The notes beneath the pieces are model-generated. The model was not told the DNA's origin, made no database searches, and worked only from the letters and a program-made list of their open reading frames with translations. Below are positions 38,005 to 54,530 of a DNA stretch of 64,000 nucleotides, one piece after another. Each line of letters opens with the position of its first letter. The stretch's first letter is position 1. The translations under genes and the position numbers were made by a program. The DNA lies in assembly GCF_002215215.1 (NCBI RefSeq), contig NZ_CP018632.1, forward strand, positions 638,001 through 702,000. Direction: 5' to 3'. Source of the DNA: Granulosicoccus antarcticus IMCC3135 (GTDB lineage Bacteria; Pseudomonadota; Gammaproteobacteria; Granulosicoccales; Granulosicoccaceae).

Positions 38005-38652
38005 ATGAAACGTATACTGACCGTTAGAAATATCCTGATTGCGATCCCCCTGCTTGTTCTGCTGGTAGGCCTTCACTATGCGCTGCCACAGGTTGATGTT
38101 GTACGGGCTGTTGGTGTCGAGGTGAAGCGCGTCGATGTCAAGGAATCCGATGCCAGCCAAGGCCGTACGCGCGACGTCTATCAACTCCAGACGGAAACGC
38201 CGGATGGGACCCCGAAGGTTTATCGTAATGAGGACAATTTCCTCTACGGCAAGTTTGATTCTGCCGACCTGCAGACACAAATTCAATCATTTGCCGCTGA
38301 CAAGCAGCTCGTTGCACTGCGCCATTACGGCTGGCGGTTGAAGTTGTTTTCCACCTTCCCGAACGCGATCAAAGTCTGGCCTGTGGAAGAAGGATACCGA
38401 CATATTCCGGTCTTCAATATCGTCGTTCTGGCAGGTATTGGTTTCCTCATTTTCTTGGTGTACCGACGGGTTAACAGTGCTGTTGACAAATCACGTCAAG
38501 CCATCGAGTCAGCACGTGCCGAGCGTGCAGAAAAAGAAGCTGTAGCAGCACGTGAAGCCCAAGAGGCGGCATCACTCAGTCGTGAGGCTGAACGCAAAAA
38601 GGACAGTGATGTTGATGCATTCCTGAATTCGGACGGTAACAACAAAGATTGA
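38005..38652 (+). CDS. DUF1523 membrane protein at the head of the Ter cluster
   Basis: 215 aa. Helix 1 at about 9-27 (ILIAIPLLVLLVGLHYALP), then the DUF1523 core: QVDVVRAVGVEVKRVDVKES, RDVYQLQTETPDGTPKVYRN, ALRHYGWRLKLFSTFPNAIK. A second helix (about 135-152) is followed by a charged coiled-coil tail rich in Ala, Glu and Arg. The stop overlaps the PRTase start (TTGA), so it is translationally coupled to the Ter biosynthetic block. Function unknown. Confidence 0.85.
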   Translation: MKRILTVRNILIAIPLLVLLVGLHYALPQVDVVRAVGVEVKRVDVKESDASQGRTRDVYQLQTETPDGTPKVYRNEDNFLYGKFDSADLQTQIQSFAADKQLVALRHYGWRLKLFSTFPNAIKVWPVEEGYRHIPVFNIVVLAGIGFLIFLVYRRVNSAVDKSRQAIESARAERAEKEAVAAREAQEAASLSREAERKKDSDVDAFLNSDGNNKD

Positions 38653-39908
38653 ACCCGCTAAATGATGCGGCTGCAAGTGTGACTGCAAGTGTGGCTGCAG
38701 GCGCAGTCAAGACGCCTCGCCGCCATGAGCTGGAAGCTGGTGTTCTGAGCCTTGTGACATCTCAGTCCGAGGCTCAGGATATTTTCAAAATTGCTGAGCG
38801 CATCAATCCCAAGCGCGCATTTCTATTTGTTTCCACCCTGCTTGGAAGGCACATTCCGGTTGATCCGGTAGAGCACCGGGCCGCTCTGCAGACACTTGCA
38901 GACGGTGTCCAGACACATCTTCTGGATGGCCCGGTCTTCGTTATGGGTTTTGCAGAAACTGCTGTGGGTATCGGAGCGGGTGTCTTTGATTGCCTCAGGA
39001 TGGGAAATCCTGCGCGTAATATCGGCTACCTGACGACAACACGCTTTCCTGCACGGGGTGCGAGTGAATGGTTCTCGATTGAGGAAGGCCATTCGCATGC
39101 GGTGGACCACACCATTCTTGAGCCAGGTCCAGGAGTTGTACAACAGGGAGCTGACGCCACTTTGGTACTCGTCGATGACGAGACTACAACCGGCAAGACG
39201 TTCTCGGAATTGGCGGCAGGTCTGTGTGCGCAATCACAGCAGTTCGGGCGGGTAGTGCTGGTCACGCTCACGGATTGGTCCGATGACCAGGCACAGACGG
39301 CTGTCGAGGGTATTTTCAAGGGTGCTGATGTTTGCAGTGTGACCTTGCAAAAGGGATCCTGGAGCTGGACGCCGAAAGAGAACTGGACGCCGTCGGCCCT
39401 TCCAGGTGGCTGCAAAGCGCACCGTTCGCCCTGGATACCTGACGCTGATCAGACATTTGCAGCGCCTCGTCTGGGTCTGGCCTCTTCAGCAGCAAGACAG
39501 TCCGGTGAGGACATCCTGAGCGATCTGCAGCGTAGTGGTCTGCGCTCTACCGGCGCTGGAGATAAAGTGTTGGTGGTGGGCGCCGGCGAACATGTCTGGC
39601 AGCCGATGCTGGCAGCAGAAGCTCTGTGCGAGCGTGGTATTCACGCGCGTTTCATTACAACAACACGCTCGCCGATTCTTCAGGGCGACACTATTCGTCA
39701 AAAAGTGTCTTTCCCGGATCACTACGGCCAGGGCTTCTGGATGTATATGCATAACGTCACCCCCTCCGATTGGGATCGTATTCTGTTTTTTACCGAAACC
39801 GGTGTGGATGGATTACCCGCAGAGCTGATTGACTGGCTGGGTCAGGTCGATGTCATTGACGGATCGGGTGCCGTTACCGTTCTCAAGAGTGCTGTGGGAG
39901 CTGCATGA
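38649..39908 (+). CDS. Ter-associated phosphoribosyltransferase with TRSP domain
   Basis: 419 aa starting at TTG 38649, which overlaps the previous stop; no in-frame ATG lies nearby. The PRTase core shows the PRPP loop TLVLVDDETTTGKTFSEL (about 171-187) and PVFVMGFAETAVGIGAGVF. A C-terminal TRSP domain (about 295-415; KVLVVGAGEHVWQPMLAAE, RFITTTRSPILQG) is typical of Ter-linked PRTases. It should transfer a ribose-5-phosphate unit to a base-like molecule. The next gene's ATGA overlaps its stop. Confidence 0.88.
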   Translation: MNPLNDAAASVTASVAAGAVKTPRRHELEAGVLSLVTSQSEAQDIFKIAERINPKRAFLFVSTLLGRHIPVDPVEHRAALQTLADGVQTHLLDGPVFVMGFAETAVGIGAGVFDCLRMGNPARNIGYLTTTRFPARGASEWFSIEEGHSHAVDHTILEPGPGVVQQGADATLVLVDDETTTGKTFSELAAGLCAQSQQFGRVVLVTLTDWSDDQAQTAVEGIFKGADVCSVTLQKGSWSWTPKENWTPSALPGGCKAHRSPWIPDADQTFAAPRLGLASSAARQSGEDILSDLQRSGLRSTGAGDKVLVVGAGEHVWQPMLAAEALCERGIHARFITTTRSPILQGDTIRQKVSFPDHYGQGFWMYMHNVTPSDWDRILFFTETGVDGLPAELIDWLGQVDVIDGSGAVTVLKSAVGAA

Positions 39909-40645
39909 TGCGTCCGATTATCTTCAGTGACCTTGACGATACGATCTTTCAGACTGCGCGCAAGATGCCCGATGGCGAGTTGGAGCACGCAACGCTGGCC
40001 TCTGAAGCCTTGAACGGTAGTCACTCGTATATGTCGCCTCCGCAGTCCCTGATGATGGATTGGTTGCTGGGATCGACCCGCTTCATTCCGGTGACAGCCC
40101 GTTCGACAGAGGCACTTGAGCGTTGCAAGCTGCCCTTCGATGATTATCAGGTCTGCAGTAACGGTGCCGTCATACTCATGCCCGATGGCACTCGGGATCT
40201 GGAATGGTTCGAGACCACGAAGGGTCATGCGGATGCCGCCGCAGAGTCTTTGAACGCGCTTCTTTCTTTCGTGCAGAATCAGACAGTGCCTGATCGTTTC
40301 AGATGCTGGATTGTCGAGGAGTTTGGCACGGGGTTCTATTTTTGCGTCAAATCGAATGAAGGTGCGGACAGGCTTGATGAGGTTGAAGAGGGCCTTGGCG
40401 ATATTGCAGGTATCCAGTTTGTTCGTCATCGAAATGACAACAACCTTTCGTTTACACCCGCGGCGATCTCGAAGCGTCATGCCGTCGAATATCTGGCGGC
40501 CAAATTGCTTGATGAGGCACGGGTGCCGGTTTTTGGAATGGGCGACAGCCTGACGGATTTACCTTTCATGGCGACATGCGACATGTTGGTCATACCCAGA
40601 AACTCACAGATCGATCGAAAAATTCTGCACTCTGAGCGCTTTTGA
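39905..40645 (+). CDS. HAD-superfamily phosphatase (Cof-like) of the Ter cluster
   Basis: 246 aa. HAD motif I is FSDLDDTIFQT (D9 nucleophile, D11 acid). Motif II corresponds to FIPVTARSTEAL, and motif IV is PVFGMGDSLTDLPFMATC. A cap domain between them (about 60-180) fits the C2/Cof type. It probably dephosphorylates a sugar-phosphate or nucleotide-like intermediate made by the flanking PRTases. Overlaps both neighbours by 4 bases. Confidence 0.88.
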   Translation: MMRPIIFSDLDDTIFQTARKMPDGELEHATLASEALNGSHSYMSPPQSLMMDWLLGSTRFIPVTARSTEALERCKLPFDDYQVCSNGAVILMPDGTRDLEWFETTKGHADAAAESLNALLSFVQNQTVPDRFRCWIVEEFGTGFYFCVKSNEGADRLDEVEEGLGDIAGIQFVRHRNDNNLSFTPAAISKRHAVEYLAAKLLDEARVPVFGMGDSLTDLPFMATCDMLVIPRNSQIDRKILHSERF

Positions 40646-41748
40646 TGTCCCCAGCACTTTCGACCACCATTGCCGGATCCTACAAACCGGAGGATGTTAC
40701 ATTTTTACTCAAGCCGGTGCAGATTGTCCCGACTGACATCGAGACCAAAGAGCGGCTGATTCAAAGCGGCACTGCGCATTATTCCGAGATGATTTCAGAG
40801 GAGCGCAGGCCAGACGAGCGCTATCTGAAAATCTTTGAACAGGCTCGCAGCAAAGGCCAGGATCGCATCGCACGAGAGATTTCCGGTCTTGCCCGGCGCA
40901 TTGCTGAGCGTGTGGCTGAAGGTTCGCTTGATCGGCAGATCACCTTGTGCTCGCTGGTCCGAGCCGGCGTGCCTTATGGGGTTTTGTTGCAGCGTGAGTT
41001 GTCAGCCATCGGTGTTGACACCCTGCATTACGGTATATCGATCATCCGTGATCGAGGGCTTGATCGTAATGCGGTGGAATTCATTCTGGGCAAGCGACCC
41101 GTGGGTGGGGTTGTCTTTGTTGACGGGTGGACTGGCAAGGGGGCGATTTCAACGGAGCTGGATAAATCCTGGTTAGAGATAACGGGCAGGCAAGCTGCGG
41201 AGCTAGTCGTTCTGGCAGACCCTGGTGGGTTTGCAACCCTGTCTGGTTCGCACGAGGACTGGTTGATTCCATCTGGCATTCTGGGGGCTAACGTTTCGGG
41301 TCTGATCAGCCGCTCTATCCTGAATGCAGATGTTATCGGTCCTGATGATTTTCACGGATCGGTGTCGGTGGATCATCTGGCTGATATCGATGTGTCGCTG
41401 GACTTTGTCGATCGCATAACGCAGCTAATGCCTGAGTACAGGGAAGCGGCTGAACCGCTGGCAGCATCGCAAGACAGGGCCGCGCTGCGCGCCCGGGCGC
41501 TTGCTTCGGTGCGTGCCATTGCACAGCTTTACAAGGTTGATAATCTTAATCGAATCAAGCCGGGTATTGCCGAGGCAACGCGGGCTGTCTTGCGTCGAAA
41601 ACCTCAAAAGGCATTCGTACGCTCGTTTGATGACCCTGATCTTGAAGCCTTGATCCATCTATGTCGCACGGACGGTGTCGATCTGGTAGAAGATGCAGCA
41701 TTGACCGGACCCTATCGGGCTATTACGTTGATCGAGAAGCTAGCCTGA
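40642..41748 (+). CDS. StiP-family protein (PRTase_1 with C-terminal PELOTA-like domain)
   Basis: 368 aa. The N-terminal part (SYKPEDVTFLLKPVQIVPTD, then HYSEMISEERRPDERYLKIF) and the PRTase-like loop GGVVFVDGWTGKGAIS (about 154-170) match the family annotated as StiP cysteine protease. I read it as a PRPP-binding-type fold with GWTGKG. The last 80 residues (LRRKPQKAFVRSFDDPDLEA, LCRTDGVDLVEDAALTGPYR) resemble a PELOTA RNA-binding domain. The stop overlaps the lyase start (TGATG). Confidence 0.85.
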   Translation: MMSPALSTTIAGSYKPEDVTFLLKPVQIVPTDIETKERLIQSGTAHYSEMISEERRPDERYLKIFEQARSKGQDRIAREISGLARRIAERVAEGSLDRQITLCSLVRAGVPYGVLLQRELSAIGVDTLHYGISIIRDRGLDRNAVEFILGKRPVGGVVFVDGWTGKGAISTELDKSWLEITGRQAAELVVLADPGGFATLSGSHEDWLIPSGILGANVSGLISRSILNADVIGPDDFHGSVSVDHLADIDVSLDFVDRITQLMPEYREAAEPLAASQDRAALRARALASVRAIAQLYKVDNLNRIKPGIAEATRAVLRRKPQKAFVRSFDDPDLEALIHLCRTDGVDLVEDAALTGPYRAITLIEKLA

Positions 41749-42665
41749 TGCAATTTGATTTTTCATCGTATGCACTGGGTGCTACGCTTTATATGCCCAT
41801 TGTGCATCATCGCGTGCCTGCCTATTTGCGCGGCGAGCTTGAATTTCCCTCAACCTCCGTTGTACTTTGCCTCGAAGATGCGTTGGCAGAGAACGATGTG
41901 GCGCGCGGCATCGTGACGCTGAAGAATCTTTTGCGCACTTGCCCAATCAATTCGAAAACCCGCGTGTTCGTGCGTCCGCGCTCTCTGGAAATGGGATTGC
42001 AGCTTGCCGAATTCAGCGGGATCGACAAGATCGAAGGCTTTGTAGCGCCGAAGATCGTGCCTGAGACCGCAGCAGCCTGGATGGATCTGGCACAGTCAGC
42101 CAATCTTCGGATCATGCCGACAGTGGAGAGCTCAGAGTTTTTCGATCCGGGTCGTATAACGGCTCTGAGAGAGGCGCTGGATAATTATGACAAGCGCCTG
42201 ATCGCTGCCATCAGGTTGGGTGGGAATGATTTGCTGGCAGCTATGGCTTTGCGCCGCCAATCTGGCATCACCTCATGGGAAGGCCCGCTGGCGTGGGTGT
42301 TGGCGATGGCCTCTTCCATGCTGATTTCGGCGGGATACCCGGTTGCGGCACCCGTGTTCGACATCATCGAGGACATTGAGACGTTAAAACGGGAGGTTGC
42401 TCAGGATGTGGCGGCCGGATTCATTTCTAAAACCGCGATCCATCCGGCGCAGATCCCCCACATTCACGATGCCTTTCGAGTTTCTGGCAAAGACATACAT
42501 CAGGCACAAGCGATTCTGCAGGAAGGGGCTGGTGCGGTCTTTCAGATCGGCGGAATAATGTGTGAGCCTTCTACGCACAGGGCATGGGCAGAAAGAGTGC
42601 TTGCCAGATACGAGGTCTTTGGCATGCAGGAAATCGCAGGACGGCGCCTGAGTCTGGAAGGCTGA
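41748..42665 (+). CDS. HpcH/HpaI aldolase-citrate lyase (CitE)-like protein of the Ter cluster
   Basis: 305 aa from ATG 41748, which shares its first base with the previous stop; the frame extends upstream only inside the StiP gene. TIM barrel features: LGATLYMPIVHHRVPAYLRG, VVLCLEDALAEND with acidic metal ligands, RVFVRPRS with the substrate Arg, IMPTVESSEFFDPGRI with a Glu, and AIRLGGNDLLAAM. It probably makes or breaks a C-C bond in the small molecule built by this block. Last gene of the four-gene biosynthetic block. Confidence 0.87.
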   Translation: MQFDFSSYALGATLYMPIVHHRVPAYLRGELEFPSTSVVLCLEDALAENDVARGIVTLKNLLRTCPINSKTRVFVRPRSLEMGLQLAEFSGIDKIEGFVAPKIVPETAAAWMDLAQSANLRIMPTVESSEFFDPGRITALREALDNYDKRLIAAIRLGGNDLLAAMALRRQSGITSWEGPLAWVLAMASSMLISAGYPVAAPVFDIIEDIETLKREVAQDVAAGFISKTAIHPAQIPHIHDAFRVSGKDIHQAQAILQEGAGAVFQIGGIMCEPSTHRAWAERVLARYEVFGMQEIAGRRLSLEG

Positions 42666-43178
42666 ATAAGCAAGCTGTGTCAGTGATGAATGCTTCAGGT
42701 CAGACTCGGAACGAGTAATAAGATGATGCTCAGACTCTCTGAGATGCCTCTTGTCGCTGACACTACTGTGTTGTTCCTCGCATTTTCTATATTGTAATCT
42801 ATGCTGGCAAGTGTCTTTCTGCAGCTGGTATTCGTCTTGTTGCGGGTGGTGTCAAGTGCGTAGCGCGTCAGCAGTGCGGCTGCAAATCCCTGGTTTTCAC
42901 AGAGCTATTGCATCGAAAAAAATCTGATTTGTGCCTGACAACCGCATTGATCAGCCAGTTACCAGGGGAATGCCACGAGAGATGGAGCGACTGGCGAGTG
43001 TGCGGCCTGCAAGCTTTAATGAAGCTTTTGAAAAATATAGAGAAATGCTGGCCGATCTTCCGGGCTGTGTTGCAGCGCGGGTAAACATACTGAGCGGATA
43101 TTTCGCCTCTTGTCATCTTGTTTTACGGATACATGCTAACTACCTTGCACTGTCACCTTTCACTATTTGGAGAAAAGA
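42666..43178. other. 513-base gap between Ter biosynthetic and TerD blocks
   Basis: No supported gene; an 83-codon frame (42931-43182) lacks a ribosome site. TTGTTC (42771-42776), 16 bases, TGTAAT (42793-42798) is a plausible promoter for the TerD block, though about 380 bases from it. The length suggests separate control of the two blocks. Confidence 0.4.
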
Positions 43179-43769
43179 ATGAGTATTTCGCTGACCAAGG
43201 GACAGACCGTGTCCCTGGAAAAGGACTCTGGCCTTTCGAAGGTTTTCATGGGATGTGGGTGGGATCCTGCACAGCCAAAGAAAAAGGGTTTTCTCAGCGG
43301 TCTGTTAGGCGGCGGTGGCGCCGATGAGATCGATCTAGATGCATCGGTTATTGTTTTTGATGCTGCCAAAAAGCAGATCGATCTGATCTGGTTTCAGCAA
43401 CTGAAAGGCAAAGATGGCTCCATTCAACACAGCGGTGATAACCTGACAGGTGAAGGCGAGGGTGATGATGAGAAAATTCATGTTGATCTCAAGGCACTGA
43501 GCTCTGAGGCGAAGTATCTCGTCTTTACTGTCAACAGTTTTCGTGGTCAGACTTTTGATGAAGTGGACAATGCCTTCGCTCGTCTGGTTGATCAGGACAA
43601 GAACACCGAGATCTGCCGCTATACACTGAATGAGAAGGGCAAGCACACCGGTGTGGTCATGGCATCGATGGAAAAAACATCGTCGGGTTGGCAGCTGACT
43701 GCCCATGGCACTCCGACAAACGGTCGCACCGCAGAAGATCTTGCCGGTGCCGCATTAGCTGTAATTTAA
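43179..43769 (+). CDS. TerD-family protein, divergent copy
   Basis: 196 aa from ATG 43179, seven bases after GGAG; it starts MSISLTKGQTVSLEKDSG as TerD proteins do. Ca2+-site regions are present: DEIDLDASVIVFDA and LTGEGEGDDEKIHVDL. Compared with canonical TerD the FYNN segment is changed (IWFQQLKGKDGSIQHSGDN) and a Lys/Gly-rich loop (PKKKGFLSGLLGGGGADE) is inserted near residue 35. TerD proteins bind Ca2+ and are thought to scaffold membrane-linked stress complexes. Ten bases before terB. Confidence 0.9.
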   Translation: MSISLTKGQTVSLEKDSGLSKVFMGCGWDPAQPKKKGFLSGLLGGGGADEIDLDASVIVFDAAKKQIDLIWFQQLKGKDGSIQHSGDNLTGEGEGDDEKIHVDLKALSSEAKYLVFTVNSFRGQTFDEVDNAFARLVDQDKNTEICRYTLNEKGKHTGVVMASMEKTSSGWQLTAHGTPTNGRTAEDLAGAALAVI

Positions 43770-43779
43770 GGAGAACATT

Positions 43780-44229
43780 ATGCTCAACTGGTTAAAACAA
43801 AACGCTGAACAAGCGCGCTCGAAATTAACGGCTGAAGCCTCCAAGTTCAAGAACAAAGGCTTCATGGAAGCCGTTGTGAACGGCTGTGCTCTGGTCGCTG
43901 CAGCGGATGGCAATATTGATGCCTCCGAGAAGCAGAAGATGGCAGGCTTCATTGAGCGGGCCGATGAGCTGCAGCACTTTGAAATGCGTCAGGTCATTGA
44001 AGTTTTTCAAAAGGCCGCTGGCGATTTCGAGTTTGATCACGGAATCGGCAAGGCATCTGCGCTGAAGGTTATCGGCAAGATCAAAGGCAATGAAGAGCAG
44101 GCTCGACTGCTGGTACGCGTTGTTTGCGCTATCGGTGCGGCTGATGGTGATTTTGATGCACAAGAGAAAGCGATGGTTTCTGAAATTGTGCGTGAACTTG
44201 GTCTGAATGCTGCCGACTTTGATCTATAG
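43780..44229 (+). CDS. terB: TerB-family tellurite resistance protein
   Basis: 149 aa, all-helical TerB fold with AKAEAE-type acidic ligands: NGCALVAAADGNIDASEKQK and VRVVCAIGAADGDFDAQEKA, the two ADGxxDxxE repeats that bind metal. TerB is known to link TerC membrane proteins to cytosolic TerD partners. Here no TerC follows; the next gene is a cation antiporter. AAGGAGAAC precedes the ATG. Confidence 0.92.
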   Translation: MLNWLKQNAEQARSKLTAEASKFKNKGFMEAVVNGCALVAAADGNIDASEKQKMAGFIERADELQHFEMRQVIEVFQKAAGDFEFDHGIGKASALKVIGKIKGNEEQARLLVRVVCAIGAADGDFDAQEKAMVSEIVRELGLNAADFDL

Positions 44230-44254
44230 ATCTCTAACGTAAATCAGAGCACCG

Positions 44255-44281
44255 GGGTAGGTCGTCAGACTTACCCATTTT
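44255..44281 (+). terminator. Hairpin with T-rich tail after terB
   Basis: GGGTAGGT (44255-44262), 6-base loop, ACTTACCC (44269-44276): 7 of 8 pairs plus a wobble or mismatch, then ATTTTA. Probably a weak terminator or attenuator inside the cluster. Confidence 0.5.
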
Positions 44282-44300
44282 ATCCAGGCAGGGAATATTA

Positions 44301-45254
44301 ATGCACGAACTTGGTACTTATCAGCTGATTGTCATCGCAATCGGCGCTATTGCTTTTGGTGTTTACCTGCTTGTTAAGGGGGGTGACTGGACCGTTGATA
44401 ATGCGGTTGTAGTTGCCGAAAGATCTGGTCTATCCAAGCACTTCATTGCTGCGACTGTCGTGGCTTTTGGTACTTCAGCGCCAGAGCTCTTTACGTCTAT
44501 CAACGCCAACCTTTCGGGTTATCCCGGAATCTCGGTTGGTAATGTCATCGGTTCCAATATTGCCAACGTCCTGATGGTCATTGGTGTGGCGGCCATTTTG
44601 GCGCCTATCGTTATCAAACGCGCTGATGTGCGTGTGGATACGTTTGTGATGCTCGGGGCGACGGTGGCAATGGTTGTCGCCATCTTGTATGGCCTTCTGC
44701 CACGTTGGGGAGGCTTTGCGATGATCATCGCTATCGGCTTGTATGTTTTGTATCAGTACAAAGCCGCAAAGCTTGATGTCGATGAGAGTGAGGAGCACGA
44801 AGCAGGTGCTGTCAGCCCTGGTCTGATGTTGCTTCTCGGGATCGTTACGCTTCTGGTTGGCTCTGAACTTCTTGTTCAAGGCGCTGTAGCAGGTGGTGTG
44901 GCACTTGGTGTGCCTGAGGCAGTCATTGGCATGACCATGATCGCCTTCGGAACCTCTTTGCCAGAGCTGACTGCCAGTGTGGCCGCTGCTCGCAAGGGCC
45001 ATTCGGAGATGATCATAGGCGGCATAATCGGATCGAATATTTTCAACATCCTGTCGGTCATGGCGTTCTCGGCGATCGCAAAACCACTGGTCATCGATAG
45101 TCGCTTTGCCTCCTTTGATATGATCGTGGTGGTGGCAGTGACCCTTCTCTTTGCAGCCTTTCTATTGTTTGCTGGAAGGATAGGGCGACTGGCTGGTGCG
45201 TTGATGAGCTTCGGCTATCTGGCGTTCTTTGGTGTTCAGTACTTCATGTCGTGA
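44301..45254 (+). CDS. K+-dependent or simple Na+/Ca2+ exchanger-like antiporter (YrbG/CaCA)
   Basis: 317 aa, about ten helices in two inverted halves. The alpha-repeats are clear: VAFGTSAPELFTSINANLSG...GNVIGSNIANVLMVIG (about 53-95) and IAFGTSLPELTASVAAARKG...GGIIGSNIFNILSVMA (about 213-255), each with the Ca2+-binding Glu in PEL. It exchanges Ca2+ for Na+ or H+ across the inner membrane. Its place between terB and terD suggests it sets the Ca2+ level that TerD senses, perhaps standing in for TerC. Confidence 0.9.
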   Translation: MHELGTYQLIVIAIGAIAFGVYLLVKGGDWTVDNAVVVAERSGLSKHFIAATVVAFGTSAPELFTSINANLSGYPGISVGNVIGSNIANVLMVIGVAAILAPIVIKRADVRVDTFVMLGATVAMVVAILYGLLPRWGGFAMIIAIGLYVLYQYKAAKLDVDESEEHEAGAVSPGLMLLLGIVTLLVGSELLVQGAVAGGVALGVPEAVIGMTMIAFGTSLPELTASVAAARKGHSEMIIGGIIGSNIFNILSVMAFSAIAKPLVIDSRFASFDMIVVVAVTLLFAAFLLFAGRIGRLAGALMSFGYLAFFGVQYFMS

Positions 45255-45987: not shown

Positions 45988-46038
45988 ATTGAGGATCTGT
46001 ATAGGACAGGTCCTGTGCCAGCTTCTGGAAGATTCACC

Positions 46039-47217
46039 ATGCCGACTCTTGCCATGGGCGCGAACGCGCCAATCTCATCGCGAAACTTCACGCTCGATGT
46101 GCATTTGCCGCAGGGGGCACAGATTGATGTGGCGGCTCTGCAGCTCTATGCCGGCGGCAAGGTACGGGGTGATGACGACATGTGCTTTTATAACCAGCCC
46201 TCGATTGGTGCTGGTGCACTGTCACTGCAAGTAAGCGGCGATAAGCAAAGCTTCACTTTCGATCTTGACAAGATCGGTGCTGATGTTGAAAAAATCGTGG
46301 TGAATGCGACTCTGGATAGCGGTGTGTTCAGTTCAGTCAGTAGTCTGAAAGTCTCGACAACCGAAGGTATCGAGATGCCCGTGGATACTTCTGGACGCAC
46401 AGAAGCCGCGCTGATCCTTTGCGAGGTCTATAAACGCAACGATCAATGGAAAATTCGCAATGTGAGCCAGGGGTTCAATGGCGGCCTGCAAGCTCTGGCA
46501 GAACACTTCGGTGTTGAAGTGGCTGCTGCAGAAAGTCCAGCCCCCGCGCCAGCAGCTCCAACGCCAGCGCCAACACCTGCTGCAACACCTGCAGCGCCTG
46601 CCTCTTCCGTCAATCTTGACAAGGTCTCGCTGACTAAAAACGAAAGCAGCATCTCGCTCAAGAAGGATGACGGCAAGTTCGGTCGTATCCGTGTCAATCT
46701 CAACTGGAACCAGAAAACAAAATCCACCGGCCTGTTCGGGATGGGGAAACGTGGAATCGATCTTGATCTGGGCGCGTTTGTAGAATTCAAGAATGGCGAA
46801 TTCGCTGTTATTCAGGCACTCGGAAAGGCCTTCGGCGATCTGGACAAACAACCCTTCGTCAAACTGATGGGAGACGACAGAACAGGTACTTCAACGGATG
46901 GCGAGTGGCTTGAGATAAATGGCGATGCCTGGCCCTCATTTCGTCGTGTTCTGATATTCGCATTTATCTATCAAGGTGCTGCTAACTGGCAGGAAACGGA
47001 CGGTGTCATCCGAATGATGGTTCCAGGGCAGCCTGAAGTAGAAGTGCGCATGAATGAGTTGAATTCGAACAAGCGCGACATCATGTGCGCAGTGGCTCTG
47101 CTTGAAAATAACAATAACCAGATTCGCGTCAACCGAGAGGTCAGTTTCTTTGGCGGGCATGAACAGATGGATAAGGGCTATGGCTGGGGCATGAAGTGGC
47201 GCGCTGGTAGAAAATAA
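46039..47217 (+). CDS. Double TerD-domain protein (TerA-like) with Pro/Ala linker
   Basis: 392 aa from ATG 46039, where GGAAG lies about seven bases upstream; a GTG frame from 46015 is less likely. N-terminal TerD-like domain at 1-160 (IDVAALQLYAGGKVRGDDDM, ALILCEVYKRNDQWKIRNVS). A linker of repeated Pro-Ala-Thr follows (about 168-198). The second TerD-like domain runs from about 200 (VSLTKNESSISLKKDDGKFG, IDLDLGAFVEFKNGEFAVIQ). TerA and TerF proteins have related layouts. The domains carry fewer acidic clusters than terD, so Ca2+ binding may be partly lost. Confidence 0.87.
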   Translation: MPTLAMGANAPISSRNFTLDVHLPQGAQIDVAALQLYAGGKVRGDDDMCFYNQPSIGAGALSLQVSGDKQSFTFDLDKIGADVEKIVVNATLDSGVFSSVSSLKVSTTEGIEMPVDTSGRTEAALILCEVYKRNDQWKIRNVSQGFNGGLQALAEHFGVEVAAAESPAPAPAAPTPAPTPAATPAAPASSVNLDKVSLTKNESSISLKKDDGKFGRIRVNLNWNQKTKSTGLFGMGKRGIDLDLGAFVEFKNGEFAVIQALGKAFGDLDKQPFVKLMGDDRTGTSTDGEWLEINGDAWPSFRRVLIFAFIYQGAANWQETDGVIRMMVPGQPEVEVRMNELNSNKRDIMCAVALLENNNNQIRVNREVSFFGGHEQMDKGYGWGMKWRAGRK

Positions 47218-47233
47218 CCGAGACAAAAAAGTT

Positions 47234-47875
47234 ATGAGAAGGCTTCCCGTATATCTCCTGCTGGACACATCGACCTCGATGAGAGGTGAACCGATCAATG
47301 CCGTGCGTGACGGGCTTGATCTTCTGGTTAGCACATTGCGTCAGGATCCCTATGCCCTGGAGACGGCCTACCTTTCAGTCATTACTTTCGATACCTCTGC
47401 CAAACAGCTGGTTCCACTCACCGAACTGACTGATTTTCAGACACCGAGTATTGAGGCCAAGGGAGCAACATCGCTGGGCGAGGCGCTGTCTCTGGCTGCA
47501 GAGTGTATAGGCCGTGAGGTCCAGAAATCTGATGCTGAAACCAAAGGGGACTGGAAACCGCTTGTTTTTCTAATGACAGATGGTGCGCCGACAGACAGCT
47601 GGCAGAGGGGGCTCAAAGACTTTCGTGCCGCAAAGCCTGGCATGGTGATCTGCTGTGCCGCAGGACCGGGTGCCGATACAAAGGTGCTTGAAGAGATTTC
47701 CGAAATTGTGGTGACGCTCGATACCGCTGATGGGGCAACCATCGCCTCATTCTTCAAATGGGTATCCGCATCAATCACAACTTCCTCCCGAAAGGTCGAT
47801 CTCAGCAAGAACGATGTCGGCGGTATAGAGGAGCTTCCGCCTACGCCCTCCGGTGTCAATCTTGCTAAGGGCTAA
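47234..47875 (+). CDS. TerY-type von Willebrand factor A domain protein 1
   Basis: 213 aa, a single cytosolic vWA domain. MIDAS DTSTS at residues 11-15 (LLLDTSTSMRGEPINAVRDG), second metal Thr in KGATSLGEAL, and Asp in VFLMTDGAPTDSW. TerY vWA proteins are proposed to assemble kinase and phosphatase partners on TerD complexes. Sixteen bases after the double-TerD gene. Confidence 0.9.
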   Translation: MRRLPVYLLLDTSTSMRGEPINAVRDGLDLLVSTLRQDPYALETAYLSVITFDTSAKQLVPLTELTDFQTPSIEAKGATSLGEALSLAAECIGREVQKSDAETKGDWKPLVFLMTDGAPTDSWQRGLKDFRAAKPGMVICCAAGPGADTKVLEEISEIVVTLDTADGATIASFFKWVSASITTSSRKVDLSKNDVGGIEELPPTPSGVNLAKG

Positions 47876-47907
47876 ATTCTGATCCGGCATATCCATGAGC
47901 AAAACCT

Positions 47908-48543
47908 ATGAGAAGACTTCCCGTTTATATGCTGCTGGATACATCCGGAAGCATGCAGGGCGAACCGATTGAGGCGGTAAATTCGGGTATGGAGACGCTG
48001 ATTGGAGCGCTCCGTCAGGACCCCTATGCGCTCGAAACGGTGCATATGTCGGTGATGACCTTTGATGCCGACGCCAAGACCATCATTCCGTTGACACCAC
48101 TTGAGGATGTGCTGTTACCGCAGATCACCACACCTCGCTCAGGCCCGACACATCTGGGACTGGCGCTGGAAACGCTGGGTGTTCAGGTAAGCAAGGATGT
48201 CATCAAGGGGAGCGATGCTGAAAAGGGCGACTGGGCTCCGTACCTTTTCATCATGACCGATGGCAAGCCCTCAGATACTCAGTTGTATGCCGAGCAATGT
48301 ATCGCCATGCGCAAGCTTGGTTTTGCCAGCATCGTCGGTTGCGCGGCTGGTCCCAAGGCAAAAGAGGATGATCTGAAGCCATTGTGTGATCACATTGTGC
48401 GTCTGGACACCATGGACAGTAGTGCCTTTGCCAAGCTCTTCAAATGGGTATCTGAAATCATAGCCTCAGGTAACAAGAGCCTCGGTACCACTGAGACTAA
48501 AAGTCTGCCCCCGCCACCGCCTGAAATAAACGTGGTGTTCTGA
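47908..48543 (+). CDS. TerY-type vWA protein 2
   Basis: 211 aa with a canonical MIDAS DTSGS (MLLDTSGSMQGEPIEAVNSG), GPTHLGLALETLG, and FIMTDGKPSDTQLY. Paralog of its neighbour; the first 60 residues align almost position by position (RRLPVY, LRQDPYALET). The stop shares a base with the next start (TGATG). Confidence 0.9.
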   Translation: MRRLPVYMLLDTSGSMQGEPIEAVNSGMETLIGALRQDPYALETVHMSVMTFDADAKTIIPLTPLEDVLLPQITTPRSGPTHLGLALETLGVQVSKDVIKGSDAEKGDWAPYLFIMTDGKPSDTQLYAEQCIAMRKLGFASIVGCAAGPKAKEDDLKPLCDHIVRLDTMDSSAFAKLFKWVSEIIASGNKSLGTTETKSLPPPPPEINVVF

Positions 48544-49604
48544 TGCGAAAGTTTCCCATCTATCTGCTTGTTGACGTGTCTGAGTCGATGGCGGGCGACG
48601 CCCTGACTCAGCTTGAAAATGGCATGCGTCAGATCACCGCAGACCTGATGCAAGACCCTCACGCTTTGGAGACTGCCTATCTTTCGGTGATCGCCTTCGC
48701 TGGCCGCGCAAGAACGCTGACGCCGCTAACGGAGCTGGTTGAGTTCGTGCCGCCGCACCTTCCCGTCGGTGGCGGTACCGGGCTTGGTTGTGCGCTTATG
48801 CATTTAATGGATGAAATCGATAACAATGTGACGCCCGGTTCGCCCGAGCGTAAAGGCGACTGGAAGCCTCTGGTGTTTCTGATCACCGATGGCGTGCCGA
48901 CCGATGATGTTGAGCCAGCGATGCGGCGCTGGCAGGATAACTATGCGCATCGTGTTGCTATTGTTGCGGTGTCTATCGGTGGTGGTGGCGACCACAATAT
49001 TCTGTCTCGACTCACGGACGACATTATTCCCTTCGACGACACGGTGGACGGTGCGTTCAAGAAATTCATAACCTGGATTACCAATTCGGTCAAAAGCTCA
49101 ACGCGTAGTGTCACAACAGGTGGTGGTATTACGTTGAGCAAGCTGGGAGATGATGTGTCGGGGCGTAGTTTAAGCGGGATGCCATTCGAGGCGGTTGATG
49201 ATCGGTATGCCGTTTTTGTTGGTCGTTGTACTGAAAACAAGGCGCCGTATGTTGTCAAATATGAGCGGCATATGAACCGGATGAATACTCAGGTTCCGCA
49301 ACTCGAAGAGCTTTTCAAAACGAGAGATTACCTGCTAAAGGCTGCAGTGCCTGTACAGCAGGATTATTTCGAGCTGTGTGATGGTGAAAAAACAGATGCC
49401 AGTGTGAGCTCCACGCAACTGATAGGCCAGCCTGACTGCCCGCATTGTCACGCCCAGTTCGGTATGGCTGTCTGTGCCTGCGGCGGTATTCATTGCGTAA
49501 AGGGCGATGGTTTTTCTGTCTGCCCCTGGTGCACTGAGGTGGGTAACTACGGTTCTTCCGGTAAATCTGATGATGGCTTTGATATCGGACGAGGACGCGG
49601 GTGA
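48543..49604 (+). CDS. TerY-type vWA protein 3 with C-terminal zinc-binding domain
   Basis: 353 aa. vWA domain at 1-185 with MIDAS DVSES (residues 11-15), GGTGLGCAL and FLITDGVPTDDV. Residues about 215-290 form an unknown globular part (FEAVDDRYAVFVGRCTENKA). The end holds a Cys/His cluster (C299, C302, C311, C313, C318, C327, C330; CPHC, CACGG, CPWC), the TerY-C metal-binding pattern. Overlaps the start of the PP2C gene by 32 bases. Confidence 0.9.
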   Translation: MRKFPIYLLVDVSESMAGDALTQLENGMRQITADLMQDPHALETAYLSVIAFAGRARTLTPLTELVEFVPPHLPVGGGTGLGCALMHLMDEIDNNVTPGSPERKGDWKPLVFLITDGVPTDDVEPAMRRWQDNYAHRVAIVAVSIGGGGDHNILSRLTDDIIPFDDTVDGAFKKFITWITNSVKSSTRSVTTGGGITLSKLGDDVSGRSLSGMPFEAVDDRYAVFVGRCTENKAPYVVKYERHMNRMNTQVPQLEELFKTRDYLLKAAVPVQQDYFELCDGEKTDASVSSTQLIGQPDCPHCHAQFGMAVCACGGIHCVKGDGFSVCPWCTEVGNYGSSGKSDDGFDIGRGRG

Positions 49605-50925
49605 GCAGATCCCCGGGGAGTTACCTGATGCACAGATTGCATTGCCATGTGAACTTGAAGCAGAGGAGGACGATGCGTTGATCATAGGACCAGGTGGTAT
49701 TCCCAAGACCGGACTGGAGTCGTCGCAACCGGATCCGGACCGGGTCAATCTGAAAAATGGCAAGGCACACCAGTCGTATCAGACCTCTATTGAGGGCTAT
49801 TCGAATATTGCCGTGAAGGACAATGGTGGCGCTGCGCTGGAAATTTCACCCGAGGGTGAAGTGTCAGGCGAGGCGATGGTCGCAGGTGAGTACACGCTGA
49901 TCCTGGAAGCGCTTAAAGCGGGTCGGCCAGTTGCCATACGGGCACGCCTGTCAATTATCGCTGATCCTCGTGACTTGTGGAAAGCCATTGCCTCAGATCA
50001 GCAAGCACCCAATGCCAAGGTGGATGAAGCGTCTGATTACTGCCGAAGTGCTGAGGCTTTTATCGTGGCAGCCAGCAAGCGTGGCAGATCACATGCACAA
50101 GTGGGAAGTTATCGCGATGATGATTTTTCTATCCGGGCCGATACTGAGACAGGCTGGCATATTCTGATTGTTGCCGACGGTGCAGGATCGGCAGAGCTGA
50201 GTCGAGAAGGTAGCAGGATCGCTTGCGAGGTCGTACTTGCTGCTCTGCCGGTGCTGCTGGCGGAGAAGGTTGATCCTCGATTACAGAGTGTCGTCGAAGG
50301 CTATGCTGATGACCCGGAGTCTTGGGCGTTGATGGTGAGAGAGGAGTTGCTCAAACCAGTTCTGCCAGAAGCCGCCCTTGAAGCCGCTCGGGCGATTGAA
50401 CTGGAGGCTGCTGAAACAGACCGCGAGCCGCAGGAATTTTCCACAACCCTCGTTATAGCCATTTCCAAAAAGGTGTCGGACAGGTGGTTTACCGCAAGTT
50501 TTTCGGTCGGGGATGGTGGGGTTGCCATATTTGATGTCGATAAAAATGAGGTTGCCGTGATCTGTCGACCCGATAGCGGTGAATACGCGGGCCAGACTCG
50601 CTTTCTTGCCTGTTCGGAATTTGATGACGCAAACGATCTCATGGGTCGTATCTTTGTTGATCTCAGAGAGAATTTTACGGTGCTGGCGGCAATGACCGAC
50701 GGTGTCACTGATGCGAAATTTCCGACTGATGCGGCTTTGGAAAACTCGCAGATCTGGTCTGAGTTCTGGGCTGAGGACATCAGTAAGGAAGTTGATTTGC
50801 AATCGAATAATCCAGCTATCCAGGAGCAGATGCTGAGCTGGCTTGATTTCTGGTCACGCGGCAATCACGACGACAGAACCATTGCCTTGATGCTGCCGGA
50901 GCAAGCAGTTAATGAATGTGATTAG
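49573..50925 (+). CDS. PP2C-family protein phosphatase with Ig-like N-terminal region
   Basis: 450 aa from ATG 49573, inside the end of the vWA gene; an upstream frame to 49507 is less likely. Residues about 68-130 look like a bacterial Ig-like domain (ISPEGEVSGEAMVAGEYTLI). The PP2C domain covers about 160-445: SYRDDDFSIRADTETGWHIL, IVADGAGSAELSREG with metal-binding D202, EFSTTLVIAIS, VGDGGVAIF, AAMTDGVTD and NHDDRTIALM. Mn/Mg-dependent Ser/Thr phosphatase, likely opposing the kinase encoded next (14-base overlap). Confidence 0.9.
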   Translation: MALISDEDAGEQIPGELPDAQIALPCELEAEEDDALIIGPGGIPKTGLESSQPDPDRVNLKNGKAHQSYQTSIEGYSNIAVKDNGGAALEISPEGEVSGEAMVAGEYTLILEALKAGRPVAIRARLSIIADPRDLWKAIASDQQAPNAKVDEASDYCRSAEAFIVAASKRGRSHAQVGSYRDDDFSIRADTETGWHILIVADGAGSAELSREGSRIACEVVLAALPVLLAEKVDPRLQSVVEGYADDPESWALMVREELLKPVLPEAALEAARAIELEAAETDREPQEFSTTLVIAISKKVSDRWFTASFSVGDGGVAIFDVDKNEVAVICRPDSGEYAGQTRFLACSEFDDANDLMGRIFVDLRENFTVLAAMTDGVTDAKFPTDAALENSQIWSEFWAEDISKEVDLQSNNPAIQEQMLSWLDFWSRGNHDDRTIALMLPEQAVNECD

Positions 50926-52402
50926 TCTGACATCCGAGAATGGGCAGCCTGTGTCTTTTGTCGATGAGATAATTGCTTCAGGCGCTATGAAAGACATCTA
51001 TGTCAGTCCTGATAAAACCTATGTTGTGGGTTTTTTCAGGGATACACCGGACGCCGCTTTGAAAGAGCGCTTACGTGAGATTACTACACGCTATCGGAAA
51101 AACCTGTTCGAAAAGGAGGGCGGGGACTTCTGGAAAGACTACTTCTGCTGGCCTGTGGATACCGTTGAATACAACGGTCGCATGGGCGTCGTTGTCCCTT
51201 TTTATGCGTCGGATTTTTTCTTCGAATTTGGCTCGAAGAATGACGATATGCTGAACATTCGCGGCAAGGATAAAGAGGGGAAGTGGTTTGCTTCTGCCTC
51301 TAACAGAGAGAAGTTTCTTGATCCTCGCGAGAAGGGTAACTGGTTGACGCATCTGCAAATCTGCCTGTCTATCTCGCGAGCGGTACGGCGATTACATATG
51401 GCTGGTCTGGCACATTCTGACCTGAGCTACAAGAATGTCTTGATTGATCCGACAAGAGGCAAGGCATGCCTGATTGATATTGATGGTCTGGTCGTGCCCG
51501 GCAAGTTCCCACCTGATGTGGTGGGTACACCTGATTTCATCGCACCGGAAGTGATTTCTACTCAAGGTCTGGCCAAGAATGATGAGGCTCGATTTCTGCC
51601 ATCCAGAACAACCGACAGACATGCGTTGGCTGTTCTGATCTATATGTACTTGTTCTTTCGGCATCCGCTTCGCGGGCGCAAGGTTTTTGATCCAGACCCT
51701 ACGCGTGATGAGGAATTGGGTATGGGCAAGGATGCGCTCTTTGTCGAACATCCCACTGATGCCAGCAATCGTGTGCGTCCGAGTGATCTGCGGCCTCAGG
51801 CCATGCCCTGGGGGGATCCAGCAGAGCGCCCCTATACGATGGCTGGGCCACTGTTGCAGGAACTCTTTGAGCGTGCCTTCATTGTCGGCTTGCATGATCC
51901 GGATAAACGTCCTTCTGCCGCTGATTGGGAGAATGCACTGATACGTACCATGGATATGATCCAGCCCTGTTCGGCGTCTTGTGAGATGGGCTGGTTTGTT
52001 TTCGACAATACTCGTGCGCCGGTTTGTCCGCACTGTGGTACGCCTTATCGCGGAAAACTGCCCGTGCTCAATCTCTACTCCAGTCGAACCAAAGGCAGTT
52101 TTCATCCCGACAACCATCGCGTCATGGTCTGGGACGGGCAATCGCTTTTCCCTTGGCATGTGAACCGCACGGTGTTTCCCAATGAACACCTTGACCCTGC
52201 TTTGAAAAAGCGCATGGGTTATTTCCAGATGCATGGTGGCGACTGGTTTCTGGTGAATGAGGGTATGCCCGGCATGAGGGATATGTCTGCAGGCAAAGAG
52301 ATTGCTATTGGCAGCAACGTAAAGCTTGAAGAGGGGACGCAAGTATTGCTGTCGCCTGATGAGGGTGGACGACTGATCCAGGTACAAATGGCCGGTGTCT
52401 GA
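50912..52402 (+). CDS. Ser/Thr protein kinase with zinc ribbon (Ter cluster)
   Basis: 496 aa. The kinase fold covers about 12-345. The catalytic loop is AHSDLSYKNVLID (H168-S-D170, N175), the metal motif LIDIDG (D189 or D191), and the activation segment end VGTPDFIAPEV. Gly-rich loop and Lys are degenerate near ASGAMKDIYVSP. Next come Cys pairs C353/C357 and C372/C375 (zinc ribbon), then a beta-rich C-terminal region (about 385-496) resembling an FHA-like or other recognition domain. With the PP2C and vWA proteins it forms a phospho-signalling unit. Confidence 0.87.
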   Translation: MNVISLTSENGQPVSFVDEIIASGAMKDIYVSPDKTYVVGFFRDTPDAALKERLREITTRYRKNLFEKEGGDFWKDYFCWPVDTVEYNGRMGVVVPFYASDFFFEFGSKNDDMLNIRGKDKEGKWFASASNREKFLDPREKGNWLTHLQICLSISRAVRRLHMAGLAHSDLSYKNVLIDPTRGKACLIDIDGLVVPGKFPPDVVGTPDFIAPEVISTQGLAKNDEARFLPSRTTDRHALAVLIYMYLFFRHPLRGRKVFDPDPTRDEELGMGKDALFVEHPTDASNRVRPSDLRPQAMPWGDPAERPYTMAGPLLQELFERAFIVGLHDPDKRPSAADWENALIRTMDMIQPCSASCEMGWFVFDNTRAPVCPHCGTPYRGKLPVLNLYSSRTKGSFHPDNHRVMVWDGQSLFPWHVNRTVFPNEHLDPALKKRMGYFQMHGGDWFLVNEGMPGMRDMSAGKEIAIGSNVKLEEGTQVLLSPDEGGRLIQVQMAGV

Positions 52403-52583
52403 ATCACTTCGGTGCCACATCGAAGTCCCTGAAAGTGCATGGAGTCTCCGGCACAAGGTGTTTCAGTCATTTTACTGACGTCGGGGCTAACATAGCGCTC
52501 TTTGTCTGTCACCTTTGTGTGAGTACAACAGCATCATCTTCTGTCAGGATGTCAGTTACCTGGACAATATTGTTTGAGCAGCT

Positions 52584-54530
52584 ATGCGTGAGCGCAACTC
52601 CGACGCGCCAAATGAACTGGAACATGTCCTTCAGGCAGCTGGCCTGCTGGTCTGCGGTGATGCCAAACCAGCTGAGTTCCTTGAATGGTTCCGGACAAGT
52701 GTGCCGGCCATGGCCCCGCGCTTTGCCAAATCTCTGTCTGATGCTGATGGTGGCTCTGGAGTCTTGATCTATGGCATGGGACGGGCTTTGTGGAGCGCAA
52801 TGCCACAGCCGTCAAATCGCTATCGACCGCAGCCATTGCCCAAGCCGGATCGCAATGGCCGCTGCCCCTGTAGTTCGGGACGCAAGTTCAAGCAATGTTG
52901 CGCGCTGGCTGAACCTCCTCGAGAGATGTTTGAGTCCATGAATTTGTTGCGCTATGTGCTCGATGGCGAAAGCAAAGCGGCTTTGAGGCGAATCGATGCT
53001 AGTGTGATGGATCCGGCTGCGCTGGATGATGTCGCACAGCAGTGGACTCACGAAGGTAATTTTGAACGCGCCCTGGCACTGCTGGAGTCCGTGTTCGATG
53101 AAGGGGCAAAGCTTCCAAAGCATGCTGAGATGCTGCTGGACACTTTGTTTGATATCTGGCCTCCGAATCACAAGCCTCAGCGTCGCCGTCGCCTGGCTGA
53201 GCGGCTTGCCAATGGAGCGAGTCCGGCAGTTGCCTGCGTCGCTGTGCATCGCTGCATCTTGATGCTGGCGGACGAGAGCAAGATGGAGGAGGCCTGGGTT
53301 CGGTTTCACGCGGGCATGCGCCAGTATCCTAAGGAGGTGAACTTTGCCGGGTTGGAGATTACCTTGCTGCTCAGGGAAAATCGTCTGGACGAAGCAAAGC
53401 GTCGGGCAGAGTTCTGGGAGCACTGGTTGAGGCGTCAGGGTTCCCAGTATCACCCCTATGCCGAACGCCTCGTGTCCATGGCTGAATCTGGTGGTGGTCA
53501 AGGAGTACTTGAGCGATTGCGCGATGAGTGGCCCATGATCGACAAACTGGCAGAATTGATCGAGTCACAGCCTATAAGCGTTGATGGCTACGCACCTCGG
53601 CCTACTGATGCCGAAGCTCCTATTGTGCTGATGCCCGATTCCAGTATGGTTGCCATTGAACGACGGTGGTCAGAAGCCGGGGTTGGTGGCAAGCCGGCGC
53701 TGGTCATGTTCGATTCAGGTGATGAGCCAATGGATCTGGAGCAGATCATTGCCATGCTTGAACAGGATCCAGCTCTGCTGCATAGCTTTGATGTGCTAGA
53801 TGATATAAGCCAGTCGCTGCAGACCTTAGCATCCGATTGGGCCGAGCTTGGTGCTGTAATGGAGCTCGTTCTGCAACGTGCAGAAACGATGCTGTTTGCT
53901 ATCGTGACCGGCAAGATGAGTGCTGAATGGGTCAAGGCTGCCAGTTGGTGTGACGCCATACCCAATATCATTCATGAGATGCCGTGGGGTTTTCTGGAAA
54001 ACCGACCGGCATTGCGCCTGATGGCTCGATATATCAATTATCTGAATTTCAACACCGTAGGTAGCTTCGAACGCTGGTTGCCTCGCGCTCGAGTCTTGCT
54101 GAAAATCAACCCGAACGATAACCATGGGTACCGTGAAATGGTCTCTATAGAGTTGTTGCGTCAGCGACGTCCAAGAGATGCTATGGCATTACTGGATCAG
54201 TACCCCGACGATGCAATGGGAGCGATAGTCATGAATCGGGTGTTGGCCTTGTTCTTACTGGAGCGAAAGACAGAGGCAGCAAGTACATTATGCAAAGGTG
54301 GCACTTGGCTGCGTGAGATACGCAAGGGGATAAAACAGGATAGCTACGCCAAGCCACGTGATATCAGCGAGTCCGGTATCACTATGGGTGGCCGTGATGA
54401 AGCGTGGTTCTACCGACAGGATATGCGCACTACCTGGAAGGAGGTTGGGGCCATGGAATGGTTGAAGCAACAGCCAGCGCCTGGAAAATTGCATCGAGGT
54501 GCGAACTCGTCAGTCGACGAGGGTGCGTGA
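52584..54530 (+). CDS. SEC-C motif and helical-repeat protein ending the Ter cluster
   Basis: 648 aa. SEC-C zinc motif at about 89-106 (DRNGRCPCSSGRKFKQCC; C94, C96, C105, C106). After it comes a long all-helical region with TPR-like pairs (QWTHEGNFERALALLESVFD, LLLRENRLDEAKRRAEFWEH, LLRQRRPRDAMALLDQYPDD), suited to protein binding. Starts 181 bases after the kinase, with an ATG at 52584. It may bring clients to the kinase/phosphatase pair. Alternative: an unrelated gene that happens to follow. Confidence 0.8.
   Translation: MRERNSDAPNELEHVLQAAGLLVCGDAKPAEFLEWFRTSVPAMAPRFAKSLSDADGGSGVLIYGMGRALWSAMPQPSNRYRPQPLPKPDRNGRCPCSSGRKFKQCCALAEPPREMFESMNLLRYVLDGESKAALRRIDASVMDPAALDDVAQQWTHEGNFERALALLESVFDEGAKLPKHAEMLLDTLFDIWPPNHKPQRRRRLAERLANGASPAVACVAVHRCILMLADESKMEEAWVRFHAGMRQYPKEVNFAGLEITLLLRENRLDEAKRRAEFWEHWLRRQGSQYHPYAERLVSMAESGGGQGVLERLRDEWPMIDKLAELIESQPISVDGYAPRPTDAEAPIVLMPDSSMVAIERRWSEAGVGGKPALVMFDSGDEPMDLEQIIAMLEQDPALLHSFDVLDDISQSLQTLASDWAELGAVMELVLQRAETMLFAIVTGKMSAEWVKAASWCDAIPNIIHEMPWGFLENRPALRLMARYINYLNFNTVGSFERWLPRARVLLKINPNDNHGYREMVSIELLRQRRPRDAMALLDQYPDDAMGAIVMNRVLALFLLERKTEAASTLCKGGTWLREIRKGIKQDSYAKPRDISESGITMGGRDEAWFYRQDMRTTWKEVGAMEWLKQQPAPGKLHRGANSSVDEGA

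Follow-up and report, generated by a model that had tools for sequence, protein, structure and literature searches.

A Ter-type supercluster of Granulosicoccus antarcticus with a CaCA exchanger in the usual place of TerC

The genome of Granulosicoccus antarcticus IMCC3135, a single contig of 7.78 Mb, carries a cluster of Ter genes at positions 38005-54530 of the 64,000-nt stretch of DNA analysed here, which we call the window. The cluster consists of 16 open reading frames (ORFs), all in the same direction, and each contains a named domain above its Pfam cut-off, with weak scores for the HAD protein (Hydrolase_3, 27.8 bits; cut-off 20.9) and for SEC-C (23.4 bits; cut-off 20.4). An earlier note on this DNA had named these domains, from DUF1523 through SEC-C, and had described a same-direction run; searches with hidden Markov models (HMMs) confirm both, including the assignments of TerD, TerB and TerY (PF02342, PF05099 and PF15616). 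All four TerD matches in the genome lie inside the cluster. The usual place of TerC, between TerB and TerD, is taken by a Na+/Ca2+-type exchanger of the CaCA superfamily, and the cluster contains no TerC. This chromosomal locus is most likely a Ter-dependent stress-response supercluster whose TerC has given way to a CaCA cation exchanger dedicated to the system.

Three sets of genes place the locus in the broad class of Ter-dependent stress-response superclusters. TerD and TerB occur together (PF02342 in three proteins, PF05099 in one), a TerY-P triad is present (PF00092 with PF15616, PF13672 and PF00069), and a PRTase-TRSP/HAD/StiP-PELOTA/C-C lyase block is recognized by Pfam and by motifs. 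Motifs read directly from the translations include the PRPP-type signatures VDDETTTGK and VDGWTGKG in the enzyme block, DLDDT in the HAD protein, DGAG and DGVTD in PP2C, HSDLSYKN in the kinase, DLDA and GDD in TerD, and DxSxS in all three vWA proteins. The nearest counterparts of the kinase are the kinases of Ter loci. The combination of TerD/TerB, TerY-phosphatase-kinase and an enzyme block, which the earlier note recognized as a Ter system, is already known from the plasmid locus p1108-NDM_Vir and from the names of Pfam families. Ter-dependent stress response systems were reportedly first described by Anantharaman, Iyer and Aravind in 2012. The narrow class of terZABCDE operons has terC between terB and terD; because this slot holds a CaCA exchanger and the sole TerC-family match in the genome is outside the cluster, we do not file the locus there.

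The same replacement recurs in other genomes. Alignment of StiP against 84,980 species genomes gave at least 595 relatives, of which 80 were kept as a StiP-anchored set; with three plasmid loci, loci from further genomes and the window, and omitting L170 as a copy of L059, the full set comprises 96 loci. All ORFs were scanned, with separate profiles for TerC/DUF475 and for two CaCA subfamilies, and the 75 loci with at least two TerD-type genes in the stretch were scored, while 21 were dropped. Among the 64 of the 80 StiP-anchored loci that qualified, TerC was found in 45, DUF475 in 14, CaCA in two, the second CaCA subfamily in one and none of these in two. The corresponding counts for all 75 loci are 48, 14, 8 and 3, with none found in two, and the CaCA count of 8 is not a frequency because some of the added loci were found through an exchanger search. 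Two kinds of transporter never occur in one locus (0 of 75; Fisher p 1.6e-11, uncorrected for kinship). The CaCA gene has TerB on one side and TerD on the other in seven of nine fetched loci as well as in the window, and TerC is placed in this way in 45 of 51 loci. Of the two remaining CaCA loci, one ends at a contig end and one is away from Ter genes. Its position and recurrence support the antiporter as a genuine Ter component, as the earlier note had inferred; that note overlooked that it occupies the place of TerC.

DUF475 proteins match both the DUF475 and the TerC profiles (the DUF475 protein of Thiothrix L097 matches the TerC profile), so that what really changes between loci is whether the transporter belongs to the TerC superfamily or to CaCA. 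DUF475 stands in for TerC in 14 loci (L075, L083, L086, L088, L097, L108, L112-L115, L119, L125, L131 and L134). The second, divergent CaCA subfamily occurs in TerC-less Ter loci of Psychromonas and of two genomes of one other genus (L084:6763-7845, L174:9514-10659 and L175:10580-11728), with Na_Ca_ex scores of 93 and 123 bits for the two that were scanned.

Loci with the same CaCA type as the window were found in the Halomonas metagenome-assembled genome (MAG) MAG25 (L056), in three Granulosicoccus MAGs (L059, L171 and L172) and in the alphaproteobacteria G099 (L179), G915 (L233), G900 (L234) and G890 (L235). They share the order TerB-CaCA-TerD with the window wherever no contig end cuts the locus. 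The longer order DUF1523-PRTase-HAD-StiP-lyase-TerD-TerB-CaCA-TerD-TerA is repeated in L233, and also in L056 with one extra TerD-type call; DUF1523 stands in front in both. Genes of the TerY-P triad occur in G099 and G900 too. Among these loci, only the window was seen to combine all of DUF1523, the enzyme block, CaCA and the TerY-P triad in a single run of co-directional genes. In the Granulosicoccus loci L059 (4401-5609) and L171 (13189-14403), ORF length and profile hits indicate that a TerD-type protein carries TerB as a fusion at its C terminus.

Features of the cluster, with positions in the window.
Feature	Position	Strand	Evidence and remarks
DUF1523 membrane protein	38005..38652	+	PF07509 133 bits (cut-off 23); 4-nt overlap with next gene
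PRTase_2-TRSP, biosynthetic block	38649..39908	+	PF15609 175 bits, PF12500 66 bits
HAD-IIB-like phosphatase, biosynthetic block	39905..40645	+	PF08282 27.8 bits; NCBIfam HAD-IIB subfamilies below cut-off; DLDDT
StiP (PRTase-like) + PELOTA_1, biosynthetic block	40642..41748	+	PF11202 310 bits, PF15608 82 bits
CitE-like C-C bond lyase, biosynthetic block	41745..42665	+	PF15617 244 bits; ORF open from 41661, start chosen
TerD family, TerZ-like position	43167..43769	+	PF02342 155 bits
TerB	43780..44229	+	PF05099 86 bits
CaCA exchanger, terC slot	44301..45254	+	PF01699 188 bits; TIGR00367 223 bits (cut-off 180)
TerD	45359..45937	+	PF02342 293 bits
Two-TerD-domain protein (TerA-like)	46015..47217	+	PF02342 111 bits, two stretches
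vWA (TerY-like) 1	47234..47875	+	PF00092 45 bits
vWA (TerY-like) 2	47908..48543	+	PF13519 38 bits
TerY: vWA + TerY_C metal-binding domain	48543..49604	+	PF15616 134 bits, PF00092 42 bits
PP2C phosphatase	49507..50925	+	PF13672 117 bits; start uncertain, ORF overlaps TerY
Ser/Thr kinase of TerY-P triad, C-terminal CPHC	50912..52402	+	PF00069 39 bits
SEC-C/TPR protein, flanking, probably not part of the system	52584..54530	+	PF02810 23.4 bits; TPR below cut-off

Compared with the ter supercluster of the E. coli plasmid p1108-NDM_Vir, the window shares TerD-type genes, TerB, a two-TerD protein, four enzymes, three vWA proteins including TerY-C, PP2C and the kinase. The plasmid carries terZABCDE-type genes, an ATP-grasp/PRTase/HAD/StiP/lyase set and a vWA-TerD (TerX)-vWA-TerY_C-PP2C-kinase series, with TerC in its slot, ATP-grasp present and the blocks divergent. 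In the window, the CaCA exchanger stands in for TerC, ATP-grasp is missing in cis, DUF1523 comes first and all genes are transcribed in one direction. Pfam itself names Ter-linked families, among them StiP, TRSP, TerY-C and 'ATP-grasp in the biosynthetic pathway with Ter operon', and NCBIfam offered no family for the PRTase-TRSP, StiP, two-TerD, PP2C and DUF1523 proteins.

The cluster is not one uninterrupted unit. Gaps of about 500 bp between the end of the C-C lyase gene (42665) and the first TerD gene, and of 181 bp between the end of the kinase gene (52402) and the start of the SEC-C ORF (52584), make at least two transcription units likely, and the start codons of the C-C lyase, the first TerD and PP2C are uncertain. 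Terminator-like sites number 28 in comparison with 14 expected, and one of them (44255-44276) falls between TerB and the exchanger; Rfam gave nothing above threshold in the window. The G+C content over 38-54 kb (0.505-0.546) is similar to that of the remainder of the window, and composition thus gives no island signal. The TRSP domain is found in only three of 26 other genomes of the genus that were searched, which argues that the system is accessory; G405, of the same genus, has the same Ter locus. Upstream of the cluster, a TnpB-like gene (36089-37165, with OrfB_IS605 and Cas12f1-like TNB domains) is flanked by a piece of a class-V aminotransferase (231 aa, 35366-36061) and by an ORF that appears to be its remainder (37153-37782), and is likely an insertion that splits an aminotransferase gene at 35366-37782. 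A hybrid sensor histidine kinase (54540-56258, minus strand; GAF, histidine kinase and receiver domains, read by eye from the translation) adjoins the other end convergently.

The exchanger itself has two PF01699 stretches with conserved ion ligands in both repeats, and belongs to the CaCA superfamily, NCX/YrbG type, with predicted transport activity. It aligns over residues 10-306 with NCX_Mj (MJ0091), an archaeal Na+/Ca2+ exchanger of solved structure (E ~1e-40), and keeps T58, S59, E62, S85, N89, T218, S219, E222 and S245. The residues described as essential in NCX_Mj are S51, E54, S77, T209, E213 and D240 (PMC8366772). Five of the six are kept, and D240 corresponds to N249; D240N occurs among NCXs, and deprotonation of D240 is not required (PMC8366772). 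Elsewhere this place in the operon belongs to TerC or DUF475, both of the TerC superfamily, whereas the window protein matches Na_Ca_ex and neither TerC nor DUF475.

In a tree of 38 rows, the Ter-linked exchangers group with one plasmid copy, and this clade is separate from the housekeeping exchangers with a support of 100 (SH-aLRT, the Shimodaira-Hasegawa-like approximate likelihood ratio test). A search of 321 genomes of the class gave 532 bits for the window exchanger and, as the next match, 259 bits for a second exchanger of the same genome, which therefore has an ordinary copy besides the Ter-linked one. Among 228 genomes of the family of G099 there are five matches at E <= 1e-90, four in Ter loci and one (G801) outside.

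It is conceivable, if somewhat unlikely, that the exchanger moves Mn2+ or Zn2+ rather than Ca2+, and that the slot serves transition-metal efflux or the metalation of exported proteins, as with the TerC proteins of Bacillus. Members of the TerC family export Mn2+ and relatives carry Ca2+ (PMC12096827), the TerC-family proteins MeeF/MeeY combine Mn2+ export with metalation of secreted enzymes (PMC12096827), and Klebsiella terC affects tolerance of Zn(II) and, slightly, of Mn(II) (PMC12054061). However, the exchanger keeps the NCX-type T/S/E ligands in both repeats, with the counterparts of E54 and E213 included, and scores above the cut-off of the TIGR00367 calcium/sodium antiporter family, and NCX homologues are Ca2+ exchangers (PMC8366772).

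The enzyme block claimed by the earlier note stands in its four enzymes, but the note had overlooked that ATP-grasp is absent. ATPgrasp_Ter (PF15632) has no match in the cluster, and is found 2.0 Mb away (C1:2680963-2682027, minus strand; L224:6964-8028) at 123 bits (cut-off 29), with 39% identity to the ATP-grasp of L176. This gene stands alone among housekeeping genes, near an apparent IS66 transposase remnant (L224:5186-5581, identified by eye). ATP-grasp is encoded in cis in none of 11 CaCA-type loci as opposed to 53 of 62 TerC/DUF475 loci, and we do not treat it as defining, as the other 9 of the 62 also lack it in the stretch covered. Kinship accounts for much of the association between CaCA and missing ATP-grasp. 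The ATP-grasp of the window genome was not found in 11 other genomes, eight of them with a CaCA-type locus (G915, G900 and G890 were outside this search), and because one query protein and partly incomplete genomes were used, absence in trans is not proved. StiP, which is often named a cysteine protease, has no invariant cysteine in 12 aligned members; the commonest cysteine columns (62% and 88% of 72 rows) correspond to G195 and S240 in the window protein, which keeps the PRPP-type VDGWTGKG motif. Plasmids carry StiP homologues too, in 2568 of the 72,556 records searched.

DUF1523 also proved to be a recurrent neighbour of this block. Its gene (PF07509) overlaps the PRTase-TRSP gene by 4 nt, and it lies directly before the biosynthetic block, on the same strand, in the Halomonas MAG L056, in the alphaproteobacterium G915 (L233) and in L105, whose Bacteroidota label is MAG-based and may be a binning error. 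Of the 96 loci, 12 have DUF1523, whereas about 0.04 would be expected by chance (one copy per ~4.5 Mb, 20-kb loci). Eight of the 12 are from Pseudomonas, so that it is safer to speak of at least four lineages. The Pseudomonas-labelled loci have DUF1523 in 8 of 16 cases, in divergent orientation next to the first gene of the biosynthetic block except for one case in which it is at the opposite end. In a sample of 398 genomes of the phylum, DUF1523 occurs in 37, mostly in two families, and lies beside ter only in the window genome; in G099 it is on a different contig from the Ter locus. That DUF1523 directly adjoins the biosynthetic operon in several lineages supports the suggestion of the earlier note that it is a genuine part of the system. 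A structural model (pLDDT 82, pTM 0.52) has a transmembrane helix, an OB-like domain (~27-127) and a second transmembrane helix leading into a coiled-coil tail. The fold search gave no match at E <= 0.001, the best being OB-fold proteins at 1.2e-3; we read the domain as a predicted OB-like fold and claim no kinship with the OB-fold proteins listed.

These components can be arranged into a tentative mechanism. TerB, TerD and the TerA-like protein would dock on the exchanger at the inner membrane, where it would substitute for TerC as a membrane hub and exchange Na+ or H+ for a divalent cation, which is most likely Ca2+ but might be Mn2+. TerD and TerB may bind or read the local metal level, and the triad of vWA/TerY proteins, PP2C and kinase could form a phosphorylation switch that relays this metal signal. 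PRTase-TRSP, HAD, StiP-PELOTA and the C-C lyase, with the ATP-grasp partner in trans, may produce a nucleoside-like molecule, and DUF1523 would be an accessory of the biosynthetic operon, perhaps as a membrane anchor or sensor. In published descriptions (PMC11090510, PMC12054061), Ter systems combine a membrane complex that senses or binds metal with signalling by TerY-P and with the synthesis of nucleoside-like compounds. Complexes of TerC with TerB and with TerD, and Mn2+ export by the TerC family (PMC12054061, PMC12096827), fit the mechanism without testing it.

An unlikely alternative is that the cluster acts primarily in anti-phage defence, with ion handling and the small molecule serving a response that aborts or restricts infection. 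In K. pneumoniae, mutation of terC reduces resistance to four of eight phages (PMC12054061), and TerY-P modules accompany restriction systems, with related modules being antiphage (PMC11090510). The effects of terC on metal tolerance are no weaker, however (PMC12054061), and the cluster contains no nuclease, toxin or restriction genes. Ten of the 16 proteins were scanned against PADLOC-DB, a library that may lack Ter models; eight had no match, the kinase and the SEC-C protein had weak ones, and no complete PADLOC anti-phage system was matched.

Several observations weigh against the replacement of TerC by a dedicated exchanger. On a tree of the biosynthetic genes, the difference between TerC superfamily and CaCA amounts to only three changes; five ter-type CaCA rows group together with a support of only 54 and a long-branch warning, in a tree that lacks L233-L235, and whether the CaCA version has a single origin is not decided. 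Counts are per locus, and related loci repeat one another. When independent pairs are compared, the link between CaCA and missing ATP-grasp does not reach significance (3 pairs, median p 0.5). Nor is the exchanger clade confined to Ter loci: 9 of its 11 known members are Ter-linked, and two stand apart, namely that of G801 (L236), away from Ter genes, and that of the Roseicitreum plasmid pRA01 (L180:15001-15966), which is 68% identical, lies 570 bp after arsJ and belongs to a 425-kb record without TerD. The only TerC-family gene of the genome (371 aa; C1:3252957-3253580) might serve in trans. A promoter scan found 11 sites with 12.7 expected, no signal above chance. Finally, the membrane-associated complex, its control of Ca2+ or another ion, the signal and the small-molecule product are things that we infer from the genes.

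On such grounds one might take the exchanger and DUF1523 for passengers, in which case the stray TerC-family gene would supply the complex from elsewhere in the genome and the exchanger would only provide a separate cation efflux. The ATP-grasp encoded in trans implies that the system can be split, and that TerC-family gene and the clade members away from Ter genes would accord with this as well. We nevertheless think it improbable. Wherever a Ter-linked locus is complete, the exchanger lies precisely between TerB and TerD, and it never shares a locus with TerC or DUF475, and the stray gene has unrelated neighbours and is of a common kind, with TerC-family genes in 9 of 14 control genomes.

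It is very unlikely that the SEC-C/TPR protein is a further functional member, a substrate adaptor of the kinase, as might be suggested by its gene, which is co-directional with the kinase gene, follows it after 181 bp and closes the run: 66 of 274 genomes of the class match it at E <= 0.001, mostly over the short SEC-C motif only, the nine with long matches (26-34% identity) have no Ter, TerY, PP2C or triad-kinase gene within up to 20 kb, and a tblastn search of 13 distinct Ter loci that have the kinase gave no match to it (some with only ~0.7-2 kb beyond the kinase). With none of nine homologue neighbourhoods containing Ter genes, we rejected this protein as a Ter part for want of a recurrent neighbourhood. 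Thus, of the three proteins for which the earlier note proposed to look for repeated co-occurrence with TerD, DUF1523 and the antiporter show it and the SEC-C protein does not.

Reading the locus as a supercluster with an exchanger in place of TerC, we find it to be mostly of a known kind; the replacement of TerC by CaCA together with DUF1523 is a recurrent variant that was not met in the literature searched. That search covered the titles of Creative Commons-licensed articles in PubMed Central (PMC), without the 2012 Ter paper, and returned no publication on CaCA exchangers with TerB, TerC or TerD and none on a link between DUF1523 and Ter.

It is possible, and we put it forward tentatively, that the terC position is a generic socket for divalent-cation antiporters that can be filled by four families, mutually exclusive within a locus (TerC, DUF475 and two separate CaCA subfamilies). 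The job of TerC would then be cation exchange, with Ca2+ as the best candidate and as the input to a TerD/TerB-TerY-P switch, and loci with DUF1523 and CaCA would represent a distinct, horizontally shared subtype whose ATP-grasp has been lost or is encoded elsewhere. The role of TerC in ter operons is called unclear in print (PMC12096827). Its replacement in the same slot by a mechanistically understood exchanger superfamily offers a direct handle on that role: if the exchanger can replace TerC, the function of the slot would be cation antiport. In addition, DUF1523 joins the Ter biosynthetic block as a partner that recurs, and the locus indicates that the ATP-grasp of the pathway can be far from the cluster.

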